This document shows, piece after piece, positions 19,866 through 33,529 of a stretch of 34,445 nt of DNA (positions are counted from its first letter, which is position 1; each line of letters begins with the position of its first letter). The DNA comes from Nannocystineae bacterium (lineage in GTDB: Bacteria > Myxococcota_A > Polyangia > Haliangiales > Haliangiaceae): NCBI GenBank assembly GCA_007133195.1, contig SLNH01000085.1:1-34445 (forward strand), written 5' to 3'. The position numbers and the translations under genes were made by a program. Below the pieces are notes generated by a model. It had not been told where the DNA came from. It did no database searches and saw only the letters and a program-made list of their open reading frames with translations.

Positions 19866-22268
19866 TCACTCGCATTGCAGCACATCCCGGTTCGTGATCT
19901 TGGGCGTGAGGAAGATGAGCGCCTCGCTCTGCTCGTCGCTCTCGCGCCGGCTCTTGAAGAACCATCCGATCACCGGCAGATCGCCGAAGAAGGGGACCTT
20001 GCTGTAGTCCGTGCTCGTGTTGCGGGTGTAGATGCCGCCGATGACCGTGGTCTCCCCGTCCTCGACGAGCACGGAGGTCTGCGCTTCGTTGCGCAAGATC
20101 GTCGGATCGCCGCGCGCCCCCGTGTTCGCGAAGTCGGGCTGGTTGTTCGAGACATTGACGTCCATCGAGATCGCGCAGTCGCGCTGGGAGACGTTCGGTC
20201 TCACGCGCAGACTCAGATCGGCGTCTACGAACTGGGTTTGTACGCCCTGGGCACCGATCACCGAAATCGGCACCGACACGCCGTCGCTGATCTCCGCCTC
20301 GCTGTTGTTCTTGACCGTGACCTTCGGCGCCGACACGAGGCGCACGGTGCCCTCCTCCTCGAGCGCGGACAGGCGCAGGTTGACGTTGAAGTTGCCGTCC
20401 ACCGAGCCGAGCGACAGCCCCATCGCGCCGCCGGCGCCGGTGCCCACGGCGGCGGGGAGGTTGACGGCGAAGTCCGACGGGACCGCCCCGACGCCGGCCG
20501 TCGGCGTCTCCCCGTCGTCGGCCCCGCCGGCCGCCGCGATGCTGTTCGGAAACTGAAGGCCGGTGTCGTTCCCCGTCTCCTCGCTGGCGACGAAGCTACC
20601 ACCCCACTGGACGCCGAGCTCGCGCGCGTACGTGGACCGCGCCTCGACCACGCGCGCCTCGATCTGGATCTGCGGCGTCTGCGTGTCGAGCCTCCGCAAC
20701 AGATCGATGATGCGGCGGCGGTGGGCCGATATGTCGTTGATGATGAGCGAGTTCGTGCGCTCGTCTACCTCGAGCCTGCCGTCCGGCGACAGAAGGGCCG
20801 AGAGCTGATCGCGAGCGAGGTTCGCGTCCGCGTAGTTGAGCGTGAACACCTCGGGCTCGGGGGATTCGGTCTGGGCCATCGCCCGGAGCCTCTCGGCCTC
20901 CGCCTCGTCTTCGGCGTCGAGCTCCGCGCGAGTCGCCACCCGGATCAGGGAATCCTCGCACCGGTACCAAAGGCCCTTCGAAGCCAAGATGACCTCCATG
21001 GCCTGCACCCAGTCGATGCGGCTAAGACGCACCGTCACCGAGGCGTCGACTTCGTCGGGGACCACGATGTTCACGTCTCCGACGTCGGCGATCATCCGCA
21101 TGAGGCTATGGATGTCCACGTCGCGAAAGTCGAGATCGATCGTGCGCGGCCGGTAGTTGCACCCCTGGATGGGGGAGCTGCGCGAGGCCGTAATCGCCCC
21201 GTATCCCCCCATGCGCTGCGGTGGAAAGTCTGTGCCGTCGATCTCGACGTCGGCGTCGCCCTCCCCCTGCGGCGGAGCGTCGTCCCCGAGCTCATCGTGC
21301 GAGAGCACCGCGGGCTCCTCGTCCGAGCTCTCGCCGTCCCCGGCGCTGGCCGAGCCGCCGCGCTTGGGGAAATCGAGGTAAAGATCCGTTCCCACCTCCT
21401 CGATCTCGGCGCGCGAGGCGCGGTCGAGCTGGGCCACCACGAGCACGCGCTCGGGATCATCGGGATCCCGGTACGACGACACCGCCCGCACCGGCCCCTG
21501 AAACTCGCTGGTGTCCAGCGTCCGTTCGAGCTCCTCGGGCATCGATACGCCGGCGATGGCGACCACCACGCGGCGCTGCGTGGCTTCGATGATCTCGGCC
21601 TCCGCCGGGGCCGAGAGCGCGACGATCACGCGAGCGTGCTCTCCCGTGTCGGCGAAATCGACGTCGCGCACCCGCACCGAGGCTGAATTATCGGCCTCCT
21701 GGTCTGCGGCGTCGGCCGCGCCGGCATCGTCGGAGTCGTCCGCCCCGCCCGCAGCCTCGTTCGAGCCGCCAGCAGGCACATTCGAGCCGCCCACGTCCTC
21801 ACCCGTGTGGCGCGGCGTGAGGCGAACGTAGATGTTGTCGTCCCGGGCATTGACCTCGTAGTCCGCCACGCGCGCCAGGGGGATCGCCACGCGCACGTGG
21901 CGCCCGGCGTCTCCGCCCTCCTCCCGCGCCCCGACCTGCGCCACGGCGCGCGTGCCGACATCGAACCGCGCCACGCCGCCGCGCTCGGATGGATCCGCGT
22001 CTGGGGACAGGCGAGCGCCGGCGACATCGACGATGAGCCGTGACGGATTATCGCGGGTGTAGAGGCTGTATCGCGGCGTCTCACTTCCCGCGATGCGGAT
22101 ATAGCTCGCACCGCTCGCCCGGTCCCTTCCCTCGATTGACTCGATTTGGTTGGTTCTCTGCCCCGCGCTCTGCGCTTGCAGGTGCGGCGCCGCGAGCATC
22201 GCGAGTACGCCGACGGCGACGCCTCGCAGGCGTCGCTGCGATTTCGACCGGCTCGGGGGCTTCGACAT
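19866..22268 (-). CDS. pilQ: Type IV pilus secretin PilQ
   Basis: 800 residues from an ATG at 22268 with GAGGAG upstream. Residues 1-33 are a signal peptide (GVAVGVLAMLAAPHLQAQ). Two AMIN-like domains (roughly 45-160 and 205-310), which bind peptidoglycan, are joined by an acidic Gly-rich linker. They are followed by the secretin N0 domain (IDLDFRDVDIHSLMRMIADV), the N1 domain (NSLIINDISAHRRRIIDLLR) and the beta-barrel secretin domain (about 540-800), which ends with the family signature VPFFGDLPVIGWFF. It forms the outer-membrane gate for the pilus fibre. It is preceded by pilP (101-bp gap) and followed by aroKB (28 bp). Confidence 0.97.
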   Translation of the reverse strand: MSKPPSRSKSQRRLRGVAVGVLAMLAAPHLQAQSAGQRTNQIESIEGRDRASGASYIRIAGSETPRYSLYTRDNPSRLIVDVAGARLSPDADPSERGGVARFDVGTRAVAQVGAREEGGDAGRHVRVAIPLARVADYEVNARDDNIYVRLTPRHTGEDVGGSNVPAGGSNEAAGGADDSDDAGAADAADQEADNSASVRVRDVDFADTGEHARVIVALSAPAEAEIIEATQRRVVVAIAGVSMPEELERTLDTSEFQGPVRAVSSYRDPDDPERVLVVAQLDRASRAEIEEVGTDLYLDFPKRGGSASAGDGESSDEEPAVLSHDELGDDAPPQGEGDADVEIDGTDFPPQRMGGYGAITASRSSPIQGCNYRPRTIDLDFRDVDIHSLMRMIADVGDVNIVVPDEVDASVTVRLSRIDWVQAMEVILASKGLWYRCEDSLIRVATRAELDAEDEAEAERLRAMAQTESPEPEVFTLNYADANLARDQLSALLSPDGRLEVDERTNSLIINDISAHRRRIIDLLRRLDTQTPQIQIEARVVEARSTYARELGVQWGGSFVASEETGNDTGLQFPNSIAAAGGADDGETPTAGVGAVPSDFAVNLPAAVGTGAGGAMGLSLGSVDGNFNVNLRLSALEEEGTVRLVSAPKVTVKNNSEAEISDGVSVPISVIGAQGVQTQFVDADLSLRVRPNVSQRDCAISMDVNVSNNQPDFANTGARGDPTILRNEAQTSVLVEDGETTVIGGIYTRNTSTDYSKVPFFGDLPVIGWFFKSRRESDEQSEALIFLTPKITNRDVLQCE

Positions 22269-22369
22269 GACTGACTCCTCGACAAGGCGTTCGGCGGCCG
22301 GTGCTGCGGCGCGCGGCGCGCGCTCTCGCGCGGATGGGATCCGGCGTGGACAAAAATCAGGTCTCATCG

Positions 22370-23056
22370 CTATCTCTCCGGAAGGTCGTCCGGCAGCAGA
22401 TCGGGATCTTCGGCGTCGGGGTGGAGCAAAATGGGCTTTTCCTCCGGTTCGGTGCCCTCCTCGCGGGCGTCGTCGGCGCCGAGTGCGAGCTGCACGTAGT
22501 TCGAGCCGATGTTCGTGATAAGAGCCTTGTCCGAGCCGATGCAGTCGCCGCGGTTGACGATGTGGCTCGCGCCCTGCCGATCGCGGAACAGCGCGTAGCC
22601 CCGCGTGCCGCGAAGGACGATCCCCGTGAGCTCGAGGTCCTGGTGTGGATATGCGTCGGCGGCCGAGTTGTCCGCCCCACATAGCTCGGTGCGGAAGTCG
22701 TCGTCGTCCCGGTCGCTGCGCGGGTGATCGACGATGTAAGAGCGGAAGGGGTCCCGGTTTTCGTCCCCGTCCGGATCGCTCCTGAACGCGTCTTCGGTGA
22801 AGGGTCGGCGCAGCTCACCGGGGACCTTGTCGTAGCTGGCGAAGGCGTGGGTTTGTCCGCGCGCGGCGTCGTCCGCCTCTTCGCGCGCCTCCTCGCCGCC
22901 GCCGCTGGCGCGGCGCCCCTGGCCCGTGCGGCTCGCGAGCGGGTCGTCCTCGGGAATCCCGTCAGGGCCGCTGTCGCCACAGGCCGCCAGCACCGACGTG
23001 AAGACGACGCACGTGAGGGCCGACCTGCGGCAGCGGGCTTGGATTTCGGCCATCAT
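22370..23056 (-). CDS. pilP: Type IV pilus lipoprotein PilP
   Basis: 228 residues from an ATG at 23056 with AAGGAGG upstream (a second ATG follows directly). The lipobox LAAC ends at Cys26, so it is a lipoprotein. After a charged low-complexity stretch (about 30-70) comes the PilP beta-domain, with DPFRSYIVD, LELTGIVLRGTRGYALFRDRQG and IVNRGDCIGSDKALITNIG. PilP connects the inner-membrane PilN/PilO complex to PilQ. The C-terminus is strongly acidic. It follows pilO by 5 bp. Confidence 0.95.
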   Translation of the reverse strand: MMAEIQARCRRSALTCVVFTSVLAACGDSGPDGIPEDDPLASRTGQGRRASGGGEEAREEADDAARGQTHAFASYDKVPGELRRPFTEDAFRSDPDGDENRDPFRSYIVDHPRSDRDDDDFRTELCGADNSAADAYPHQDLELTGIVLRGTRGYALFRDRQGASHIVNRGDCIGSDKALITNIGSNYVQLALGADDAREEGTEPEEKPILLHPDAEDPDLLPDDLPER

Positions 23057-23061
23057 CGTGG

Positions 23062-23820
23062 TTACTCGCCTCCTTCGCCATCGCCGGCGACGTCGCTGCT
23101 CAGATCCTCGGGTTCGAAGGTCTCCTCCACCTCGAGATCGCCCTCGGGCGCGCGCGCCTCATCCTCGGCCGGGTCTGCGCCCCCGTCGCCACCGTCTCGA
23201 TCGTCGGACACGCCCGAGGCCGCATCTAGCTCCGCAAGCAGCCCATCTCCCCGCTGCCGAAACGTCGCGGCGGTGAACTCGGCCGCGAGCTCGAGCTCGT
23301 CGTCCTCGTCCACGTCCTGCACGGTGAGGGTGAAATCCTCGATCGTGATGACCCGCTCCGTTTCGTAGATCAGGTAGAAATACTCCATGATCTCGTAAAA
23401 GGTGCCCCGCACCTCGATCTGGACGGGCACCTTCATGTAGTCGCCGGCCTCTTCTTCGTCGCGGCGGGACCACTGGTGAAGGTGCACGCCGGAGGCCGCC
23501 GCCTGCCGCTGCAGGTGCACGAAAAACGCCGACAGCTCCGCCGCGAGTGGTAGCGAGACGAGGCTCGCGCGGAGGTTTTCCTCCAGCTCGTCGCGCTGGT
23601 CGAGCAGATCGTCGTACTTGTCCGCGCGATCTAGCAAGGACTGGTTCCTGCTCTCGAGCGACTGGTTACGGCTGGTCGCCTCGTTCACGTCGTCCCTGAG
23701 CGAGGAATAGAAAAACTGCCAGTACAGGGCGCCCAGCACGACGAGCACGAGCCCGAGGAGCGCCCCCGTCTTCGCGGGAGACTGCTTGGCGAGCGTTTCG
23801 CGGATGTCCTCGCGTGCCAT
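23062..23820 (-). CDS. pilO: Type IV pilus inner-membrane protein PilO
   Basis: 252 residues: a short cytoplasmic N-terminus, one membrane helix (about 19-38, GALLGLVLVVLGALYWQFFY), a coiled coil (about 42-90) and a ferredoxin-like periplasmic domain (KVPVQIEVRGTFYEIMEYFYLI). The last ~49 residues (204-252) form an acidic tail with about 20 Asp/Glu and only two Arg. PilO pairs with PilN to align the pilus machine across the periplasm. Its ATG shares one base with the pilN stop (TGATG), so translation is coupled. Confidence 0.96.
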   Translation of the reverse strand: MAREDIRETLAKQSPAKTGALLGLVLVVLGALYWQFFYSSLRDDVNEATSRNQSLESRNQSLLDRADKYDDLLDQRDELEENLRASLVSLPLAAELSAFFVHLQRQAAASGVHLHQWSRRDEEEAGDYMKVPVQIEVRGTFYEIMEYFYLIYETERVITIEDFTLTVQDVDEDDELELAAEFTAATFRQRGDGLLAELDAASGVSDDRDGGDGGADPAEDEARAPEGDLEVEETFEPEDLSSDVAGDGEGGE

Positions 23821-24458
23821 CAGTAGCGAACCTCGCCGGTGATCGTAAACTCGTGATAACTCACGCCCGACTCCCTGTCCTCGGCCGTGTCGCCGCCTTG
23901 CGGCACCACGTCATCGAAGTAGGCCGAGGCCTCGAGGCGTAGCGCGAGCTGGGTCATATCGGCGTCGGCGTTGGCGCCGCCGTGCAGCGTGAAACTCCCG
24001 TCGCGCTCGGAGAACTCGATGATCCAGGCGCGTTTCGGATCCCACGCGTCGTTCCACACCCGGCCGATGTTTTGCGCTGCGCGCGCGGCCGACGCCTCGT
24101 CCATGGTCGGCCGAACATCGGGCGTGAGAATTCGTGACAGCTCGTTCATCAGCCACGCCGGCGTCGCCTTCGCCTCGTTCAGCGATTCGACCGCCGCCTC
24201 CCGCGCCGCCAGCGCTTCGAGCGCGTCCTGAATCTCTTCGAAGTCTTTCGTCGCCGCCTCGAGCTCGCGGTTTTCGCGCTCGAGATCCTGGTTTGCCGCC
24301 TTCGTGACCTCGAGATCCTCCGCGAGCGGCCTGTGCACGAACACGAATACGAGCGCGCCCGTGGCCACGAGCGCGAGCATCCCCAGCCCGAGGATTTCGC
24401 GCCCGCGATCGTGGGTACGTTTGACCTTCTGCTCGGAGAGGAGGTTGATCTTGATCAT
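23820..24458 (-). CDS. pilN: Type IV pilus inner-membrane protein PilN
   Basis: 212 residues from an ATG at 24458 (MIKINLLSEQ); a longer reading frame exists but gives an Arg-rich tail overlapping pilM. INLL at residues 4-7 is the conserved peptide that docks into PilM. A membrane helix spans about 23-42 (LGLGMLALVATGALVFVFVH), followed by a coiled coil (about 48-95) and a periplasmic domain ending in SYHEFTITGEVRY. The start is 11 bp after pilM and the stop overlaps pilO by one base. Confidence 0.96.
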   Translation of the reverse strand: MIKINLLSEQKVKRTHDRGREILGLGMLALVATGALVFVFVHRPLAEDLEVTKAANQDLERENRELEAATKDFEEIQDALEALAAREAAVESLNEAKATPAWLMNELSRILTPDVRPTMDEASAARAAQNIGRVWNDAWDPKRAWIIEFSERDGSFTLHGGANADADMTQLALRLEASAYFDDVVPQGGDTAEDRESGVSYHEFTITGEVRY

Positions 24459-24469
24459 GACCGCGACCT

Positions 24470-25531
24470 TTACTTGTCGTGCGGCGCTCGAAGCGCGAGG
24501 CCCAGCCCCACGACGGCCTCCGGCGCGTGCGCGGCGAGAAACGCGCCGTCGAGATTGGGATCCAGATCGACGCGCCGCCACGCGTCCGCGACCTGAACGT
24601 CGAGGCGCGACCGGCGGGCGATGGCGCGCTGCAGGGCGCCGACCTTGGCGCCCCCCCCTGCCAGCCAGACCCTGCTCACGTTCGTCTCCCCCGCCTGCTC
24701 GAGATAAAAGTCGATCGACCGCTGCAGCTCCCCCGCCATGACCTCGGAGACCTGTTCGATGATCGGCGCCACTTCTTGCGGAATGAGCCCGCGCTCGCTT
24801 TGACTGCCGCCGACCTTATAGGCCTCCGCCTCTTCCGCTGGCGCGCCGAGCTGGCGTTGGATCTCCTCGGTGAGCGTGTTCCCGCCGACGGTCATATCCC
24901 GCGTGAACAAGCTCATGCGGTCGCGAACGATGTTGATGTTCGAGCTCGCCGCGCCGATGTTGATGAGCACCGCCGTCTCGCCGAGCGCGAGGTCGTAGTT
25001 GGCCTCGAACGCGTTTTGCGCGCTGAACGCCGCGACATCCACGACCGCGGGCGATAGGCCCGCATCGCGCACGACCGCCGCGTAGTCGTGCACGATCTGC
25101 TTTTTGGCGGCGACGAGAATCACCTCCATAAACCCCGCCGGGTTTAGCTCGCTGACCACCTCGTAATCGATCTCGAGCTCGTCGCGGGACGACGCCAAGT
25201 GGTGCTCCGCCTCGTAGGGAATCTGCTCCTCGAGCTGATCGCGGCGCATCGGAGACAGGTTGTTGATGCGCTTTATGATCACCGAAGGCCCCGAGACCGC
25301 GATGGCCACCTCTTTGCTGCGAAGCCGCAGGCGCCCCCACAGCGTCCGGATCGCGTCCACCACGGCCCCCTGGTCCATGATCGTGCCGTCCACGATCGTC
25401 TGGGGGCCGAGCGGTTCGATCCCGAACGCCAAAAGCTGCGGGCCCCGCTTGGTCGACTTAATTTGAACGACCTTCACACTGCTCGACCCGATGTCGAGGC
25501 CAATGCATTGTTTACCCTTGAAAAAACCCAT
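24470..25531 (-). CDS. pilM: Type IV pilus assembly ATPase-like protein PilM
   Basis: 353 residues, full family length. The actin-like (FtsA/SHS2) fold opens with CIGLDIGSSSVKVVQIK (phosphate 1), then AIAVSGPSVIIKRI and EEQIPYEAEHHL; LINIGAASSNINIV (phosphate 2) and VWLAGGGAKVGALQRAIARR follow. PilM is the cytoplasmic ring component that binds the PilN tail and relays signals between the pilus motors and the alignment complex. It is the first gene of the pilMNOPQ run and faces the 824-bp divergent intergenic region. Confidence 0.97.
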   Translation of the reverse strand: MGFFKGKQCIGLDIGSSSVKVVQIKSTKRGPQLLAFGIEPLGPQTIVDGTIMDQGAVVDAIRTLWGRLRLRSKEVAIAVSGPSVIIKRINNLSPMRRDQLEEQIPYEAEHHLASSRDELEIDYEVVSELNPAGFMEVILVAAKKQIVHDYAAVVRDAGLSPAVVDVAAFSAQNAFEANYDLALGETAVLINIGAASSNINIVRDRMSLFTRDMTVGGNTLTEEIQRQLGAPAEEAEAYKVGGSQSERGLIPQEVAPIIEQVSEVMAGELQRSIDFYLEQAGETNVSRVWLAGGGAKVGALQRAIARRSRLDVQVADAWRRVDLDPNLDGAFLAAHAPEAVVGLGLALRAPHDK

Positions 25532-25608
25532 GAGCTCCGGCTCGCAGGAGAGCCTGCCTGAGAACTACATTCGGTGACAGAGGACTACGCCTGAGCACCT
25601 TCTCCTAC

Positions 25609-25638
25609 ATCGTACAAGACGGGCTTCAGCCGGGGCAA
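25609..25638 (-). promoter_or_regulatory. pilM: Possible promoter of the pilM operon
   Basis: On the minus strand TTGCCC (25633-25638) and TACGAT (25609-25614) are 18 bp apart, about 80 bp before the pilM ATG. The -35 box overlaps the inverted repeat CCGGGG-N9-CCCCGG at 25630-25650, which could be an operator. Matches to consensus are moderate. Confidence 0.3.
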
Positions 25639-25650
25639 AAAATTCCCCGG
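25630..25650. repeat. Inverted repeat CCGGGG-N9-CCCCGG upstream of pilM
   Basis: A 6-bp perfect inverted repeat flanks a 9-nt A/T-rich spacer (CAAAAAATT), about 100 bp upstream of pilM. The spacing and its overlap with a possible -35 box suit a dimeric regulator site; an RNA hairpin is the alternative. Confidence 0.45.
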
Positions 25651-26159
25651 ATTTGCAAGAAACCAACGCAACATCGATGATTTAAGGTCCTTCGCGCGAG
25701 CCGCTTGGCCGCGGCGCGCGGCGGCTGCTCACGATAAGTCGTGGGCACTCGCCGGGCTCCCTGCCGAGGCCGAGGTGCCAGTCGGAGATGGACCGGAGAG
25801 CGCGGCGCCGAGCGCGCACCGTATCGGCGTTGTCAGGCGCCGCGTGTCGTCAGGACGCGCGACCACACGAAAAACAGTCAAGCGCGATCAGGTTACCACG
25901 CAAACGAACGGCAAGAACCATGATCGTGTGGCCAGGTCCCGTCGTACCCGTGCGCAGTCCCGCGCGCTTCATACCCTTTGGACACACACTTTCGCACTGC
26001 GCTCATCCCCCGCGCCCCCTCGCTCAAACCGCATGAGTCGCCCCACATCCGCGCCGCGCGAGTGACACGCCGGGCCCCGCACATGCCGGGTCATCGGTGC
26101 GCGATCAAGGCACACACGAAACGCAAACCGCGGCGCCAGGCGCTCACGCCTCCCGGGCC

Positions 26160-26181
26160 GCCGGCTGAAGGCACAGCCGGC
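26160..26181. repeat. Strong 8-bp inverted repeat upstream of the vWA lipoprotein genes
   Basis: GCCGGCTG (26160-26167) and CAGCCGGC (26174-26181) flank a 6-nt loop, AAGGCA. The hairpin lies just upstream of the candidate promoter at 26205-26234. It could be an operator, or the terminator of a short transcript, although no T-tract follows at once. Confidence 0.5.
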
Positions 26182-26204
26182 CTGCCGCGGCGCCACCATC
26201 GCGA

Positions 26205-26234
26205 TTGTTTTGCGGCACCGCCGCGCGCTAGAAT
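26205..26234 (+). promoter_or_regulatory. Candidate sigma-70-type promoter of the first vWA lipoprotein gene
   Basis: TTGTTT (26205-26210) and TAGAAT (26229-26234) are separated by 18 bp. The -10 box matches TATAAT at 5 of 6 positions and sits in otherwise very G/C-rich DNA. It would give a leader of about 115 nt before the ATG at 26356. Confidence 0.4.
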
Positions 26235-26355
26235 GGCCCTCGCAACATCGCACAGCGCCGCGAAGTTGCCAGCGGCCATGAGCCGCGAGCGGAAGCCGGC
26301 TTTTCCCTCGGGCCCGTTATCACTGCCGCCGCTCGATTCAACCGGAGCACATTCC

Positions 26356-27816
26356 ATGCGCGAACATTTTCCAAACCGGATCGCGAAGGTCATTATTCCC
26401 TTGTGCGCGCTCGCCGTGCTCGCCGCGTGCCCGAGCCGCGACGTCTCGTCGGTGGATCCCGAAACGGGTCGCGAGACGAGAACCAATATCGACATTTCGC
26501 TCGAGCGCAAGCTCGACCTGCTGTTCGTCATCGACGAGTCGATCGCGATGGAAGCGATCCAAGAACAGCTCGCCGACAACTTCCCCTTGTTCATGGACGA
26601 GCTGGCGAGCATCGAGGGCGGGCTGCCCGACTTGAACATCGGGGTCATCTCGGTGGACGTGGGCGCCGATCCGTCCCCGGCGGCCGATCCCGCGGTCGGC
26701 TGCGAAGGCGACGGCAAAGACGGACGGCTCATCGTCGGCGAAGACGACAGCGGCTGCCCGGGGCTCGACGGGCAGTGGATCGAAGCTCGGCAGACGGGAG
26801 ACGGCGTCGAGTTCAACTTCGACGACAGCGAAGAGCTCGATGATGTGTTTTCGTGCATGGCGAGCTTGGGCGCGGAGGGGTGCGGCTTCGAGATGCCGCT
26901 CGAGGCGCTGGCGCGCTCGTTCGAGCACCCGAACAACGAAGGCTTTTTCCGCGAGGACGCCCACCTCGGCGTCGTCATCCTCACCATGGAGGACGACTGT
27001 TCGGCCCACGACATGGACATGTTCGCCGGCGATCCGTTCGGCGACCTCGAATCGGAGCGCGGGCCGCTCGCCTCGTTCCGCTGCACCGACTACGGGATTA
27101 CCTGCGATGACGACGTCCAGTGCGATCTCGACCGGAACATGCGCTGCGAGGGCGTGCGCGAAAGCTGCGAGCCGAACTACGACTCGCCCTACATGTACCC
27201 GCCCGAGCACTACGTCGATATCGTTCGCCAGTTCAAGGGTGGGGACGATAGCCGCATCATCGTCGCGGGCATCTGGGGGGACATGGGTCCCATCGAAATC
27301 GCCCAGGAGCCAGCCAACCAGACCGAGTACGCGCGCTCGCTGCCCACCTGCGAGCTGTCCCATCCCGACGCCGACCCGCCCGAATTTCCCGAGGAGCGCG
27401 ACGTTTACCCGCCCAACGCGCCGGTGAGGCTCGAGGTCTTCCGTAGCGCGTTCCAGAACACGCAGACGCAGTCGATCTGCGAGGAGAGCCTGGTTGACCC
27501 GATCCGGAACATCGCGGCGGAGTTCGTCGTGGTGCTCGGCACCCCCTGCGTGCAGGGCAACCTCCTCGACACCGAGCCCGACGAGCCGGGCGTTCAGCCC
27601 GAGTGTTCGGTGTCAGACGTGCGCAACCCCGGCCAGGACGACGAGGAAGAGTTCATCATCCCCGAGTGCGACGACGACCACACGAACACCCCGTGCTGGA
27701 CCATGGAGCCCTCCGACGACTGCAACACCCCGTCGGGCCTTCAACTCGAAGTCGACCGCGATGGAGACTCGCCGCCCTCCAACACGGAGATCCGCATCCG
27801 CTGCGTAGGAGCGTAG
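26356..27816 (+). CDS. vWA-like lipoprotein with degenerate metal site (paralogue 1)
   Basis: 486 residues from an ATG at 26356 with CGGAG about 9 bp upstream. Residues 7-25 are a lipoprotein signal ending in the lipobox LAAC (Cys25). A vWA-like fold starts at DLLFVIDESIAM (about 54-65), where the usual MIDAS DxSxS reads DESIA, and continues to VVILTMEDDCSAHDMD, where the expected Asp after the beta-strand is Met. The rest is cysteine-rich and acidic, with FRCTDYGI, MRCEG, CEPNYDSPYM, RIIVAGIWGD and a C-terminal SDVRNPGQ domain. It is probably anchored in the outer membrane. The next gene is a full-length paralogue, 81 bp downstream. I know similar proteins only as uncharacterised myxobacterial lipoproteins. 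Confidence 0.8.
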   Translation: MREHFPNRIAKVIIPLCALAVLAACPSRDVSSVDPETGRETRTNIDISLERKLDLLFVIDESIAMEAIQEQLADNFPLFMDELASIEGGLPDLNIGVISVDVGADPSPAADPAVGCEGDGKDGRLIVGEDDSGCPGLDGQWIEARQTGDGVEFNFDDSEELDDVFSCMASLGAEGCGFEMPLEALARSFEHPNNEGFFREDAHLGVVILTMEDDCSAHDMDMFAGDPFGDLESERGPLASFRCTDYGITCDDDVQCDLDRNMRCEGVRESCEPNYDSPYMYPPEHYVDIVRQFKGGDDSRIIVAGIWGDMGPIEIAQEPANQTEYARSLPTCELSHPDADPPEFPEERDVYPPNAPVRLEVFRSAFQNTQTQSICEESLVDPIRNIAAEFVVVLGTPCVQGNLLDTEPDEPGVQPECSVSDVRNPGQDDEEEFIIPECDDDHTNTPCWTMEPSDDCNTPSGLQLEVDRDGDSPPSNTEIRIRCVGA

Positions 27817-27897
27817 CGGCGGCTTCGCGTGTCGAGGGCCCACCCGCCCTCGACGCGCCGGGCTCGGCCGCGCGGGACCGTCCAAACGAGCGCTTAG

Positions 27898-29346
27898 ATG
27901 GGAGAGACCAAGGGCCAGACGCACGCTGTCACGGGCTTGGCGCTGGCCGGCGCGCTCGCCTCGCTGGCCGCGTGCCCGGATCGCGACATCGCGGCGGTCG
28001 ATCCGGTGGCGGAGCGAGAGCAGCGCGCCGAGATCCCAGTCGAGATCCAGCGCGATCTCGACCTCATCTTCATCGTGGACGACTCGAGCTCGATGACGCC
28101 GAACCAGCGCGCGCTCATCCAGAACTTCCCCCGGTTCATGAACGTCCTCGCGAGCGTCGACGGCGGGCTCCCCAATGTCCATATCGGCGTCATTTCCACC
28201 GACGTGGGCGGGGATCCGACCCCGCTGGGCCACAATTTCGTCGCCGACGAGTGCGTGGGCGACGGCTACGACGGGCGCTTCATCGTCGGCGAGGGCGACG
28301 AGGGCTGCCCCGGCCTGGATGACCAGTGGATCGTCGACGTCGCGAACGAGGAAGCCGACGACGGGGAAGGCGATGACGACGAGCGTATCCGCAACTACCA
28401 GGGCGAGCTCGGCGAGCTGTTTACATGCATGGCCGAACTCGGCACGGACGGGTGCGGCTTCGAGATGCCGCTCGAGTCGCTCCGCCGCGCCCTCGAGCAC
28501 CCCGATAACGAGGACTTCTTCCGCGACCACGCCTACCTCGGGGTCGTGATCCTCTCTGACGAGGACGACTGCTCGATTCACGATCTCAACATGCTGGGCG
28601 AAAGCCCCGTGGCCCCCCTTGGGGAGAGCTACGGGCCGCTCGCCTCGTTCCGCTGCACCGACTACGGCATCCGCTGCGATCCCGTCGATTGCGACGAGTA
28701 TCCGCGCGACATGCGCTGCGAGGGCGAGCGGCAAAACTGCGAGCCCGACTACGACTCTCCGTATATGCACCCGCCCGAGTACTATGCCGACGTGCTGCGG
28801 GAGTTCCGGGACGAAAACCGGATCATCGTCGCCGGCATCATCGGTGATCCCGAACCGGTCGAAGTCTTCCACGAAAGCGACGGCCTCACGACGTTCGCGC
28901 GGCTCGCCCCGTCGTGCGCGACCCCCGCCGGCGACGCCGACCCCGGCGTGCGACTCTCCGTCTTCCTCGATCAATTCGCGGAGAGCGAGCAGGCCTCGAT
29001 TTGCGACGGGGATCTGTCGGGTCCCGTGGACGACATCGCCCAGCGGTTCGCCGAGATCCTGGCGAGTCCGTGCGTCGGCGGGAACATCCGCGACATGCAG
29101 CCCGATCAGCCGGGGATCCAGCCGCAGTGCTCGGTCTCCGACGTGGAGCACCCGGGCACAGACGCCGAGCAAGAATACCCGCTCCCCGCGTGCGACGGCG
29201 GACAAGCCAACGCCCCGTGCTGGTACATGGAGCCGTCCGAAGAGTGCGAGGGCGTCACGCCCACGGGCCTTGCCCTCGAGGTCGAGCGCGCGGACACGGC
29301 GCCGCCGCCGGGCACCCGGATCCGCGCCCGCTGCGTAGCCGACTAG
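27898..29346 (+). CDS. vWA-domain lipoprotein with intact metal site (paralogue 2)
   Basis: 482 residues. A signal peptide ends in LAAC (Cys26), although the ribosome-binding site is weak. The vWA domain opens with DLIFIVDDSSSM, an intact MIDAS DxSxS (residues 61-65), and includes VVILSDEDDCSIHDLN, where the MIDAS Asp is present. It aligns with the preceding protein over its whole length, sharing GLPN(D)VHIGVIS, GCPGLD, GCGFEMPLE, SFRCTDYGI, YDSPYM, PPEYY, RIIVAGI and CSVSDV. vWA domains bind divalent metal and protein ligands, so surface adhesion or complex assembly is a reasonable guess. Its neighbours are the divergent pil operon on one side and a YhhN gene on the other. Confidence 0.85.
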   Translation: MGETKGQTHAVTGLALAGALASLAACPDRDIAAVDPVAEREQRAEIPVEIQRDLDLIFIVDDSSSMTPNQRALIQNFPRFMNVLASVDGGLPNVHIGVISTDVGGDPTPLGHNFVADECVGDGYDGRFIVGEGDEGCPGLDDQWIVDVANEEADDGEGDDDERIRNYQGELGELFTCMAELGTDGCGFEMPLESLRRALEHPDNEDFFRDHAYLGVVILSDEDDCSIHDLNMLGESPVAPLGESYGPLASFRCTDYGIRCDPVDCDEYPRDMRCEGERQNCEPDYDSPYMHPPEYYADVLREFRDENRIIVAGIIGDPEPVEVFHESDGLTTFARLAPSCATPAGDADPGVRLSVFLDQFAESEQASICDGDLSGPVDDIAQRFAEILASPCVGGNIRDMQPDQPGIQPQCSVSDVEHPGTDAEQEYPLPACDGGQANAPCWYMEPSEECEGVTPTGLALEVERADTAPPPGTRIRARCVAD

Positions 29347-29418: not shown

Positions 29419-30159
29419 TTGATCATCCTCGACCTGCTTGCGCGCGCGCCCCTGGCGCGTGACACTTCCGCCGTGGCTTTCGCGGCGATAGCTACGGCCG
29501 CCTGTGCATTGTTCGTCGCGCTCCTCGTCGTGTGCGACTACCGCGGGGCGCGAGTCGGCGAGCGCGTTAGTAAGCTCGGCGCTTCGGCCGCCTTCATCGC
29601 CTGCGGCGTCGCCCTGGCGCTCAGCCAGGCGCCCGGAGCGTTCGCCGGCTTCGTCGTCGCGGGCCTCGTCTTCGCGGCTGCGGGTGACGCCTGGCTGCTC
29701 GGCCGAGGTCAGCGCGCCTTCGCGTTCGGTCTCGGCCACTTCCTGTGCGCGCACCTCGCCTACATCGCTGCCGCCGCCTCGGTCCTACCGCCGACCTCGT
29801 GGATGACCCCGCTAACCGCCGTGCCCGTCATCAGCGCGCTGGCGGCCCTCACCTGGCTGAGCCCGCACCTCACGTCGATGCGGGCGCCCATCTGCCTTTA
29901 TGTCGCGGCGATCACGACGACGGCCATCGCCGGCCTCGCGCTGGTGTGGTCGGTTCCGGTGCCCGTCCTGGGCACGGGCGGAGCCATCCTGTTCGCGGCC
30001 GGCGCGCTTTGCTTTTTCGTCTCGGACTTGGCCGTCGCGCGAAACCGCTTCGTCGCCCCCGGGTTCGTAAACCGCGCCTGGGGACGGCCCACCTACTACA
30101 CCGGCCAGCTCCTCATCGCGTGGAGCACGGCGTTCGCCTCCGCCGGCCCCGCGGCCTGA
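29419..30159 (+). CDS. YhhN/TMEM86-family membrane protein (lysoplasmalogenase-like)
   Basis: 246 residues from a TTG start at 29419 (MIILDLLARAPL); the start is uncertain because no strong ribosome-binding site is visible. There are about eight hydrophobic helices. GDAWLLGRGQRAFAFGLGHF, GAILFAAGALCFFVSDLAVA and RPTYYTGQLLIAWS are the conserved YhhN blocks with the acidic residues thought to be catalytic. Characterised members hydrolyse the vinyl-ether bond of lysoplasmalogens. Myxobacteria are known to make ether lipids, so such an activity would fit (inference). It is 72 bp downstream of the second vWA gene and may be read with it. Confidence 0.87.
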   Translation: MIILDLLARAPLARDTSAVAFAAIATAACALFVALLVVCDYRGARVGERVSKLGASAAFIACGVALALSQAPGAFAGFVVAGLVFAAAGDAWLLGRGQRAFAFGLGHFLCAHLAYIAAAASVLPPTSWMTPLTAVPVISALAALTWLSPHLTSMRAPICLYVAAITTTAIAGLALVWSVPVPVLGTGGAILFAAGALCFFVSDLAVARNRFVAPGFVNRAWGRPTYYTGQLLIAWSTAFASAGPAA

Positions 30160-30174
30160 GCGAACACGCGCCGC

Positions 30175-31059
<885 letters not shown>

Positions 31060-31139: not shown

Positions 31140-31943
31140 GTGCTCGGTGACGCGACGCCCTTCTCCTACGCGGGCGACGGCCGCGGCGTGCTGCTCCTGC
31201 ACGGTTTTACCGGCACCCCGTTCGAGATGCGCCACCTCGGCCGCCGCCTCCACGAGCGCGGCATGTCGGTGGAGTGCCCGCTTTTGCCCGGCCACGGCGG
31301 CAGCGCCTCCGAGCTGTCCCGAACCACCTACCACGACTGGTACGGCGGCGCCGAACGCGCGTTTTTCGAGCTGTCGCGCCGCTGTGACCGCGTGGCGGTC
31401 GCCGGCCTGTCCATGGGCGGGCTGCTCGCGCTGCACCTTTGCCGCTACTGGCGCGGGGAGATCGCCGCCGTCGCCGCCCTGTCCACACCCCTGTGGCTGC
31501 CCCCGACCGCCGCGCGCGCCGCGCGCCTCGCCGAAAGGCTCCCCCTTGTGCCCGCGGCCATCCCGGGGGTCCCCAAGCTCGCGGGGTCCGACTGCCGTGA
31601 CAAGGCGATGCGCCGCGCCAACCCGAGCACGCCGTCTTTCCCCGTGGCCGGCATCCTCGAGCTCCTCAAGCTCATGCGCGTCGTGCGAGGCGAGCTGCCC
31701 CAGATCGACACGCCTGCGCTCATCGTCCACGCGCGCAAGGACCACACGGCCCCATTCGCGTGCTCCGAGCCGCTGGCCCGCGAGCTGGGCAGCAGCGTCG
31801 TCAAGCACCGCCCTCTGGAGAGGAGCTATCATCTCGTGACGATCGATGTGGAGAGGGACCGGGTGGCGGCCGAGGTCGCCGCGTTTTTCGAAGAGCACCT
31901 CGGCAGCTCACAGCCCGCGGCCAGTTCCTCGCACACCGCCTGA
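31140..31943 (+). CDS. Alpha/beta hydrolase, Est30-like carboxylesterase
   Basis: 267 residues from a GTG at 31140 with AGGAG about 8 bp upstream. LLLHGFTGTP (18-27) is the oxyanion loop, GLSMGG (89-94) the nucleophile elbow with Ser91; HARKDHTAPF carries the catalytic Asp and SYHLVTID the His. This is the order and size of bacterial carboxylesterases and monoacylglycerol-lipase-like enzymes acting on short or medium acyl esters. Glycerol kinase follows 95 bp downstream on the same strand, so the pair could release and then phosphorylate glycerol from acylglycerols (inference). Confidence 0.92.
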   Translation: MLGDATPFSYAGDGRGVLLLHGFTGTPFEMRHLGRRLHERGMSVECPLLPGHGGSASELSRTTYHDWYGGAERAFFELSRRCDRVAVAGLSMGGLLALHLCRYWRGEIAAVAALSTPLWLPPTAARAARLAERLPLVPAAIPGVPKLAGSDCRDKAMRRANPSTPSFPVAGILELLKLMRVVRGELPQIDTPALIVHARKDHTAPFACSEPLARELGSSVVKHRPLERSYHLVTIDVERDRVAAEVAAFFEEHLGSSQPAASSSHTA

Positions 31944-32038
31944 GCCCGCGCCGGGCGCCGCACGGCGCAGGTAGGCGAGTCTGCAACAGGGCGGCTCCCG
32001 CGGCCGCACAGCCGGCCAAAGCCCCGAAGGAGGCATCC

Positions 32039-33529
32039 ATGCGCCACGTTGTCGCCATCGACCAGGGAACCACCGGAACCACCGTGCTCGTCGTGGATGA
32101 GGAACTCCGCGTCGTGGGCCGCAGCACCCGCGAGTTCGAGCAGATCTACCCACAGCCCGGGCAGGTGGAGCACGATCCGCGCTCGATCTGGAAGTCGGTC
32201 ACCGAGGCGCTCGGCGGCGCCCTCGGCGAAGCGAACATCGCGCAGAGCTCGATCGCCGCCGTGGGCATCACGAACCAGCGGGAAACCGCAGTGCTGTGGG
32301 AGCGGCGCTCGCTCGAGCCGGTGAGAAACGCCATCGTCTGGCAGGATCGGCGGACGGCGGATCGCTGCGCGGAGCTGGAGCGCGCCGGTCACGGTCCTCG
32401 CCTGCGCGAGCTCACCGGGCTCGTCATCGACCCTTACTTCAGCGCGACGAAGCTCGAGTGGATGCTCCGCGAAGACCCGGAGCGCCGCCGCCGCGCCGCC
32501 CGGGGCGAGCTCGGATTCGGGACCGTAGACAGCTATCTCGTCGCCAAACTCACCGGCGGTGAGGCGTTCGTCACCGACGTCACGAACGCATCTCGCACCC
32601 TTTTGTTCGATATTCGGCGATGCGAGTTCAGCGACGAGCTCTTGTCATTGTTCGACGTGCCGCGCGAGATGCTGCCCCGCGTGGCGAGCTCCGCCGAAGT
32701 TTACGGCGTAACCCGCGACGTCCCCGGGCTCCCAAACGGCATCCCCGTGGCCGGAATCGCCGGCGATCAGCAGGCGGCGCTGTTCGGGCAGGCCTGCTTC
32801 GAGCCCGGCGCCGCGAAGGTCACCTACGGCACGGGCGCGTTCGTGCTGGCAAACCTCGGCGACACGCCCATACTCTCCGAATCGGGGCTCCTTACCACGA
32901 TCGCGTGGCAGATCGGCGAGGGGAGCGAACAGGGTGAGCTGCGCTACGCGGCCGAAGGATCGGCGTTCGTGGCCGGCGCCGCCGTCCAGTGGCTCCGCGA
33001 CGGCCTCGGGCTGATCCGCACCGCTGCGGAAGTCGAAGCGCTCGCGGCCGGCGTCGACGACTCGGCCGGGGTCGTGGTCGTTCCGGGATTCGCAGGGCTC
33101 GGCGCGCCCCACTGGCGCCCGGAGGCGCGAGGGCTCATTTGCGGGCTCACCCGGGGCACCACGGCCGGCCATATCGCGCGCGCCACGCTGGAGGGCATCG
33201 CGCTGCAGAACACAGACATCCTGCGGGCGATGGAGCGCGACGCGGGCCGGGCCACCACCGAGCTGCGCGTGGACGGCGGCGCAGCGGCAAACGACCTGCT
33301 CATGCAGTTTCAAGCCGACGTCCTCGGCACGCCGATCGTGCGACCCGAGGTTCTCGAGACCACGGCGCTCGGGTCCGCGCTCCTCGCCGGGCTCGCCACC
33401 GGCGTGTGGCGCACGAAGGCCGATATCGCCCGTCAATGGCGCGAGGAGCGGCGGTTCGAGCCCAGCGCCGAGCGCGCCGACATCGAGACCCACCTCGAGC
33501 GCTGGCGCCGCGCCGTCTCCATCGCCTAG
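32039..33529 (+). CDS. glpK: Glycerol kinase
   Basis: 496 residues from an ATG at 32039 with GAAGGAGG upstream, family length. VAIDQGTTGTTVLVVDEE is the phosphate-1 loop, followed by AVGITNQRETAVLWER and AIVWQDRRTAD. Substrate-binding SATKLEWML, GTVDSYLVAKLTGG, GIAGDQQAALFGQ, VTYGTGAFVLAN, GLGAPHWRPEARG and the adenosine motif RVDGGAAANDLLMQFQAD are all present. It converts glycerol and ATP to glycerol-3-phosphate. No glpF or glpD lies in the window; the hydrolase gene is upstream. Confidence 0.98.
   Translation: MRHVVAIDQGTTGTTVLVVDEELRVVGRSTREFEQIYPQPGQVEHDPRSIWKSVTEALGGALGEANIAQSSIAAVGITNQRETAVLWERRSLEPVRNAIVWQDRRTADRCAELERAGHGPRLRELTGLVIDPYFSATKLEWMLREDPERRRRAARGELGFGTVDSYLVAKLTGGEAFVTDVTNASRTLLFDIRRCEFSDELLSLFDVPREMLPRVASSAEVYGVTRDVPGLPNGIPVAGIAGDQQAALFGQACFEPGAAKVTYGTGAFVLANLGDTPILSESGLLTTIAWQIGEGSEQGELRYAAEGSAFVAGAAVQWLRDGLGLIRTAAEVEALAAGVDDSAGVVVVPGFAGLGAPHWRPEARGLICGLTRGTTAGHIARATLEGIALQNTDILRAMERDAGRATTELRVDGGAAANDLLMQFQADVLGTPIVRPEVLETTALGSALLAGLATGVWRTKADIARQWREERRFEPSAERADIETHLERWRRAVSIA

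Follow-up and report, generated by a model that had tools for sequence, protein, structure and literature searches.

Two adjacent genes facing the type IV pilus operon pilMNOPQ in a Nannocystineae genome encode paralogous vWA lipoproteins, here termed P1 and P2, of which P2 carries an intact MIDAS metal site and P1 a degenerate one. The reading we prefer, to which we assign a probability of about 0.5, is that P2 is a metal-dependent surface adhesin and that P1 is a duplicated, metal-dead pseudo-adhesin retained beside it, in the context of attachment with type IVa pili. Both proteins would be secreted, MIDAS-adhesin-like lipoproteins comprising a lipobox, a vWA domain with large disulphide-bonded insertions and a small C-terminal cysteine-rich β-region, and would most likely be anchored in the outer membrane. 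With its metal site intact, P2 is probably a metal-dependent surface adhesin, as judged by its family. P1 would have been born by duplication within the lineage and then have lost MIDAS metal coordination, while purifying selection would keep it as a full-length pseudo-adhesin. It is most likely a partner, modulator or metal-independent binder beside P2, although a direct P1–P2 partnership is a guess, and a heterodimer or decoy, as raised in the sequence-only reading, is likewise hypothetical. The family's old neighborhood beside pilMNOPQ in 10 related families makes surface attachment, in concert with type IVa pili, the most likely cellular context.

The gene pair and its metal sites

The window analyzed is a stretch of 34,445 nucleotides. 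P1 (486 residues; 26356–27816, plus strand, ATG at 26356 and stop at 27816) and P2 (482 residues; 27898–29346, plus strand, ATG at 27898 and stop at 29346) were assigned from their open reading frames and translations, and P2 additionally from a low-confidence fold match and the NCBIfam MIDAS adhesin model. The genes lie on the same strand, 81 bp apart, and their products are 54% identical over the full length. Common to both are a cysteine framework and, after the signal peptide, the lipobox LAAC (26419–26430 in P1, 27964–27975 in P2, both plus strand), the Cys of which is invariant across the family. An intergenic region of 824 bp (25532–26355, from the open reading frame positions) separates P1 from the divergent pilM (24470–25531, minus strand; Pfam PilM_2, E 1.8e-66), which is followed downstream by pilN, pilO, pilP, and pilQ in that order (19866–24458, minus strand). 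The latter four names derive from similarity and position, following the blastp order in relatives, and the start codons of pilN and pilQ are approximate. On the other side, P2 is succeeded by a YhhN-family membrane protein (29419–30159, plus strand; Pfam YhhN, E 4.6e-31), an FHA-GGDEF diguanylate cyclase (30175–31059, minus strand; Pfam FHA and GGDEF, same position in relatives), and glycerol kinase, glpK (31760–33529; from similarity and gene order). A promoter scan of the intergenic region found no sigma-70 consensus, and terminators were at the level expected by chance; both results are uninformative.

The metal site of P2 is complete, comprising the DDSSS loop (28078–28092) and Asp221 in LSDEDDCS (28558–28560). 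In P1, the corresponding motifs, read from the translation and the family alignment, are DESIA (26533–26547), in which the first Asp and first Ser are retained and the second Ser is replaced by Ala, and LTMEDDCS, in which Met (26986–26988) replaces the Asp. The sequence-only reading had described two full-length paralogues side by side, divergent from pilMNOPQ over a shared intergenic region, with the MIDAS intact in P2 and the lipobox and conserved cysteines kept in P1, all of which is borne out here. Its statement that P1 has lost both MIDAS motifs holds for the later Asp, but the DxSxS motif is only partly lost. A third copy, P3, is found in the same genome on another contig and outside the pil locus (L033; G000 C416, 3794–5440). 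Its site, EESSV and VTVEDDCS, is also degenerate (D61E, S65V, E189K, and D221V in P2 numbering), with more MIDAS residues altered than in P1. By the pattern DxSxS…D, P2 has a complete metal site, whereas P1 (Ser to Ala, Asp to Met) and P3 do not.

The losses are concentrated at the metal site. A column counted as family-invariant if its conservation among intact members from genomes other than that of the window reached 90% or more, which gave 60 columns (four MIDAS and 56 others). P2 keeps 57 of the 60, and P1 and P3 keep 54 each; all invariant cysteines are retained in the three proteins. P1 has lost 2/4 MIDAS columns versus 4/56 others, and P3 3/4 versus 3/56. Pooled, 5/8 MIDAS positions are lost in P1 and P3, against 7/112 other invariant positions (Fisher p 2e-4). 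In the alignment of the family at large, which is present in 36/36 related genomes with 1 to 16 matches per genome, the MIDAS is intact in 70 of the 84 members with readable motifs. That the motifs were read by chance is ruled out by these 70 full sites and by the clustering of P1 and P3 losses at the MIDAS.

A further residue, Glu189 in loop 2 (28462–28464 in P2), is a candidate family-specific MIDAS residue. All 72 members with Asp221 have Glu here, and 9 of the 12 members without Asp221 have lost it; Ser65 is lost in 2/72 of the former and 9/12 of the latter. These counts are of related members and not of independent events. vWA domains elsewhere usually have Thr at this position. Its invariance alongside Asp221, and its usual loss together with that residue, make Glu189 a probable component of the family's metal site. 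The matching Glu is kept in P1 (26890–26892, by alignment), and is replaced by Lys in P3.

Linkage of the family to pilMNOPQ

The neighborhood was surveyed by searching first for pilM in 144 genomes of the class and then reading the DNA upstream, which avoids choosing loci by the vWA gene; a few extra pilM loci from the window's own family were taken from the vWA search. A vWA gene lies upstream of pilM at 31 of 31 decidable loci, the window included, in 10 families of the class (f1–f4 of the same order, f9, f13, f15, f18, f22, and f23). None is present at the 55 loci of 11 further families in the class, nor at the 40 loci fetched from outside it, of which 39 had enough upstream DNA to be decidable. 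At loci without the vWA gene, the longest open reading frames upstream of pilM were listed, and none encodes a MIDAS protein. The vWA gene is divergent from pilM at all linked loci save two, both in family f23 (L081 and L089), where it lies upstream of pilM in the same direction. Beyond the array, in many families, the usual next genes are the FHA-GGDEF diguanylate cyclase followed by glpK.

The link to the pil genes proposed from position in the sequence-only reading is thus established as synteny, while as function it is suggestive. Because pilM and glpK, for which a functional connection is improbable, stay neighbors also in families lacking the vWA gene, this chromosomal segment preserves its gene order for no apparent functional cause, and synteny alone is no proof of a pilus role. 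The own genome encodes PilB and PilT over the cut-off, from which a working type IVa pilus machine is likely in this organism.

The neighborhood may instead have been inherited passively: the vWA gene would have been inserted between pilM and the FHA-GGDEF and glpK genes in a common ancestor, and its products would be general surface adhesins, directed at prey, particles, or cells and unrelated to the pilus. This is a credible account, to which we give about one chance in three. The persistence of pilM–glpK adjacency where the vWA gene is absent is as expected from it, as are the family copies remote from pil that also exist in most genomes and the co-directional vWA genes of the two f23 genomes. 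Against it, the all-or-none distribution by family and the amplification in place to two to four copies in many genera are better matched by selection acting at this position than by neutral retention, without amounting to proof.

Retention of P1 and degenerate members in other arrays

P1, P2, and P3 group together in a single clade (support 100) with no members from other genomes, P3 being sister to P1. The duplication is therefore lineage-specific, and the pair is independent of the degenerate copies of other lineages. Most relatives hold intact copies alone. An ancient, conserved pair of intact and dead proteins, the conservation of which the sequence-only reading had put forward as a check, is ruled out by this clade. 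P1 and P3 share 66% amino-acid identity (34% of residues differ) with no frameshift. Their dN is 0.24 and their dS 0.92, a dN/dS of about 0.26 (NG86) that serves as an upper guide, dS being near saturation in GC-rich DNA. Within this genome, neither the frameshifts nor the neutral drift that had been raised against P1 are seen, and 52 of its 56 non-MIDAS invariant positions are kept. Given losses concentrated at the MIDAS, the low P1–P3 dN/dS and the lack of frameshifts, P1 is thus probably a retained, site-specifically altered protein and not a pseudogene, as judged from copies within its own genome.

Synonymous divergence is lower between P1 and P2 (dS 0.76) than between P1 and P3 (0.92), though P1 and P3 are sisters at the protein level (window 27613–27816 versus 28078–29343). 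Base composition or weak gene conversion may account for this; the P1–P2 synonymous difference is below expectation, yet a search for gene conversion between the two found no standout tract.

Degenerate members also occur in other arrays. The 29 divergent pil-linked arrays comprise 15 with a single gene and 14 with two to four genes. A degenerate member is present in 6 of the 14 multi-gene arrays versus 1 of the 15 single-gene arrays (L100, in which the only change is Asp to Asn). All six of these multi-gene arrays also hold an adjacent intact copy, and in five of them the degenerate copy is the one nearest pilM. The tree requires at least four separate MIDAS losses, with the caution that long branches join within a group of eight degenerate members (genus g6 and G006). 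Four tandem vWA lipoprotein copies stand beside pilM in G006 (L036, 5597–11880), the third without the MIDAS Asp and Glu189. In genus g6 (L046, L054, L057, L076, L051, and L045), the pilM-proximal members are shorter and MIDAS-dead, with many cysteines gone, and differ from P1 in the degree of change. A tandem vWA pair off the pil locus in G023 (L060, 4048–6509) has an altered MIDAS in both copies and no C-terminal cysteine region.

An alternative is that P1 is a functionless duplicate in slow decay, the MIDAS having been the first part to go. The lineage-specific duplication, the greater MIDAS loss in P3, the shortened, cysteine-poor, MIDAS-dead members of g6 and the apparently repeated loss of the MIDAS from in-array copies while an intact copy stays are all in keeping with such a course. 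However, the 66% identity of P1 and P3 with an open frame, the dN/dS of about 0.26 and the full set of invariant cysteines speak for constraint, and free decay would not cluster losses at the MIDAS; we consider decay unlikely.

Equally improbable in our estimate is that the site is changed and not dead, P1 still binding metal through altered coordination by Asp, Ser, and Glu, or binding a changed ligand without metal. P1 does keep the Asp and Ser of DxSxS and the equivalent of Glu189, and vWA-type domains that work without a MIDAS have precedents, such as vWF A1. Yet the changes of Ser to Ala and Asp to Met both remove coordinating side-chains, and P3 is changed further (Glu for Asp, Lys for Glu189, and Val for Asp221). 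A more elaborate version of the preferred reading, in which the pair forms a two-part surface adhesin, the metal-dead P1 being dedicated to regulating or structurally supporting P2, and acts with the type IVa pilus machine, and in which this arrangement evolved several times in the pil-linked arrays of the class, strikes us as speculative, with perhaps one chance in six.

Relation to known MIDAS proteins

AlphaFold2 models of P1 and P2 place the core strands and helices in vWA order, and their best PDB matches are integrin β-I and vWF A domains. These are low-confidence models (mean pLDDT 50 for P1 and 47 for P2) from thin alignments of four sequences, and are used here for fold topology only; at that level they predict a vWA fold for both proteins. 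Strands are also predicted after the vWA part, at the C-terminus, with a pLDDT of about 50. Among 39 scanned members, Pfam VWA_2 matches 29 (best E 1.6e-5), with P1 and P2 under the Pfam cut-off, and the NCBIfam MIDAS adhesin model NF052240 matches the vWA part of all 39 (best E 3.2e-12). P2 scores 24.5 bits against the latter (E 1.3e-5); like those of all the members, this score is far below the curated cut-off, set at 700 bits. The P1 model also gives a weak structural match to the I-domain of Pactolus (PDB 2iue), an integrin-β-like protein, which shares the vWA-type fold but is a vertebrate protein with no sequence relation to P1. The MIDAS of the Pactolus I-domain is changed.

The closest described likeness is to Bd0875 of Bdellovibrio bacteriovorus, a lipobox-bearing MIDAS protein at the predator–prey junction, in which replacing the MIDAS Asp abolishes function (PMC11003981). 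In common with Bd0875 and Bd1483, the P1/P2 family has a lipobox, a vWA domain with a DxSxS MIDAS, and predicted disulphides, and may have a small β-rich terminal region. In contrast to Bd0875, whose role is prey invasion, its members are about 100 residues longer with more cysteines, and stand in tandem arrays beside pilMNOPQ that include MIDAS-dead paralogues. CglD and CglB, outer-membrane proteins of gliding motility in Myxococcus xanthus, are likewise vWA lipoproteins, from a related phylum; CglB is likened to P1 and P2 by description. The CglD model NF033765 spans 1124 positions with other domains, and matches the vWA part of 6/39 members far under its curated cut-off. There is no CglD match in the own genome and none of 23 genomes exceeds the model's cut-off (400 bits); membership of CglD is ruled out, all matches being under the cut-off.

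The comparison with PilY1, a type IV pilus tip and priming protein whose vWA domain is N-terminal, made in the sequence-only reading is upheld for the fold, with a MIDAS-bearing vWA domain in a type IV pilus context. It fails for the remainder of the protein, as the PilY1 C-terminal domain PF05567 is absent from P1 and P2 (Pfam, E up to 1). Unlike PilY1, P1 and P2 carry a lipobox in place of a plain signal peptide and have no minor-pilin cluster: minor pilins are not among the neighbors identified by Pfam (pilM, YhhN, FHA-GGDEF) or by similarity and order (pilNOPQ, glpK). PilY1 has a weak match under the Pfam cut-off in the own genome, and weak to clear matches in many genomes that carry the vWA gene. 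A 2026 survey of myxobacterial PilY1, in the text of which the word “lipoprotein” does not occur, found Haliangiales and Nannocystales to be without a linked pilY1 cluster (PMC13190605). That weak match and the lack of a linked cluster could suggest that P1 and P2 are the pilus-tip adhesin of these bacteria, standing in for PilY1, but this is very improbable: PilY1 and the vWA gene co-occur in relatives and are not mutually exclusive, so that replacement is not supported, the lipobox anchors to the membrane and not to a pilus tip, and neither a pilin-type signal nor the PilY1 C-terminal domain is present.

No description of this pil-linked lipoprotein family was found in the open-access literature searched. 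As far as can be judged from sequence, these pil-linked MIDAS-adhesin lipoproteins, whose MIDAS-dead paralogues recur and are retained, appear to be a new variant, for which function is predicted. Predatory and social bacteria use PilY1, CglB, and Bd0875 to hold on to surfaces and prey, and the adhesive part of each is a vWA domain with a MIDAS. With a lipoprotein family of this adhesin type fixed in ten families next to the core operon of the type IV pilus, its part in surface attachment can be put to the test. Copy number has changed in place, and one copy has repeatedly and specifically lost its metal site; the resulting natural set of intact and metal-dead proteins shares one scaffold and permits direct tests of what the metal site and any pseudo-adhesin partners do.
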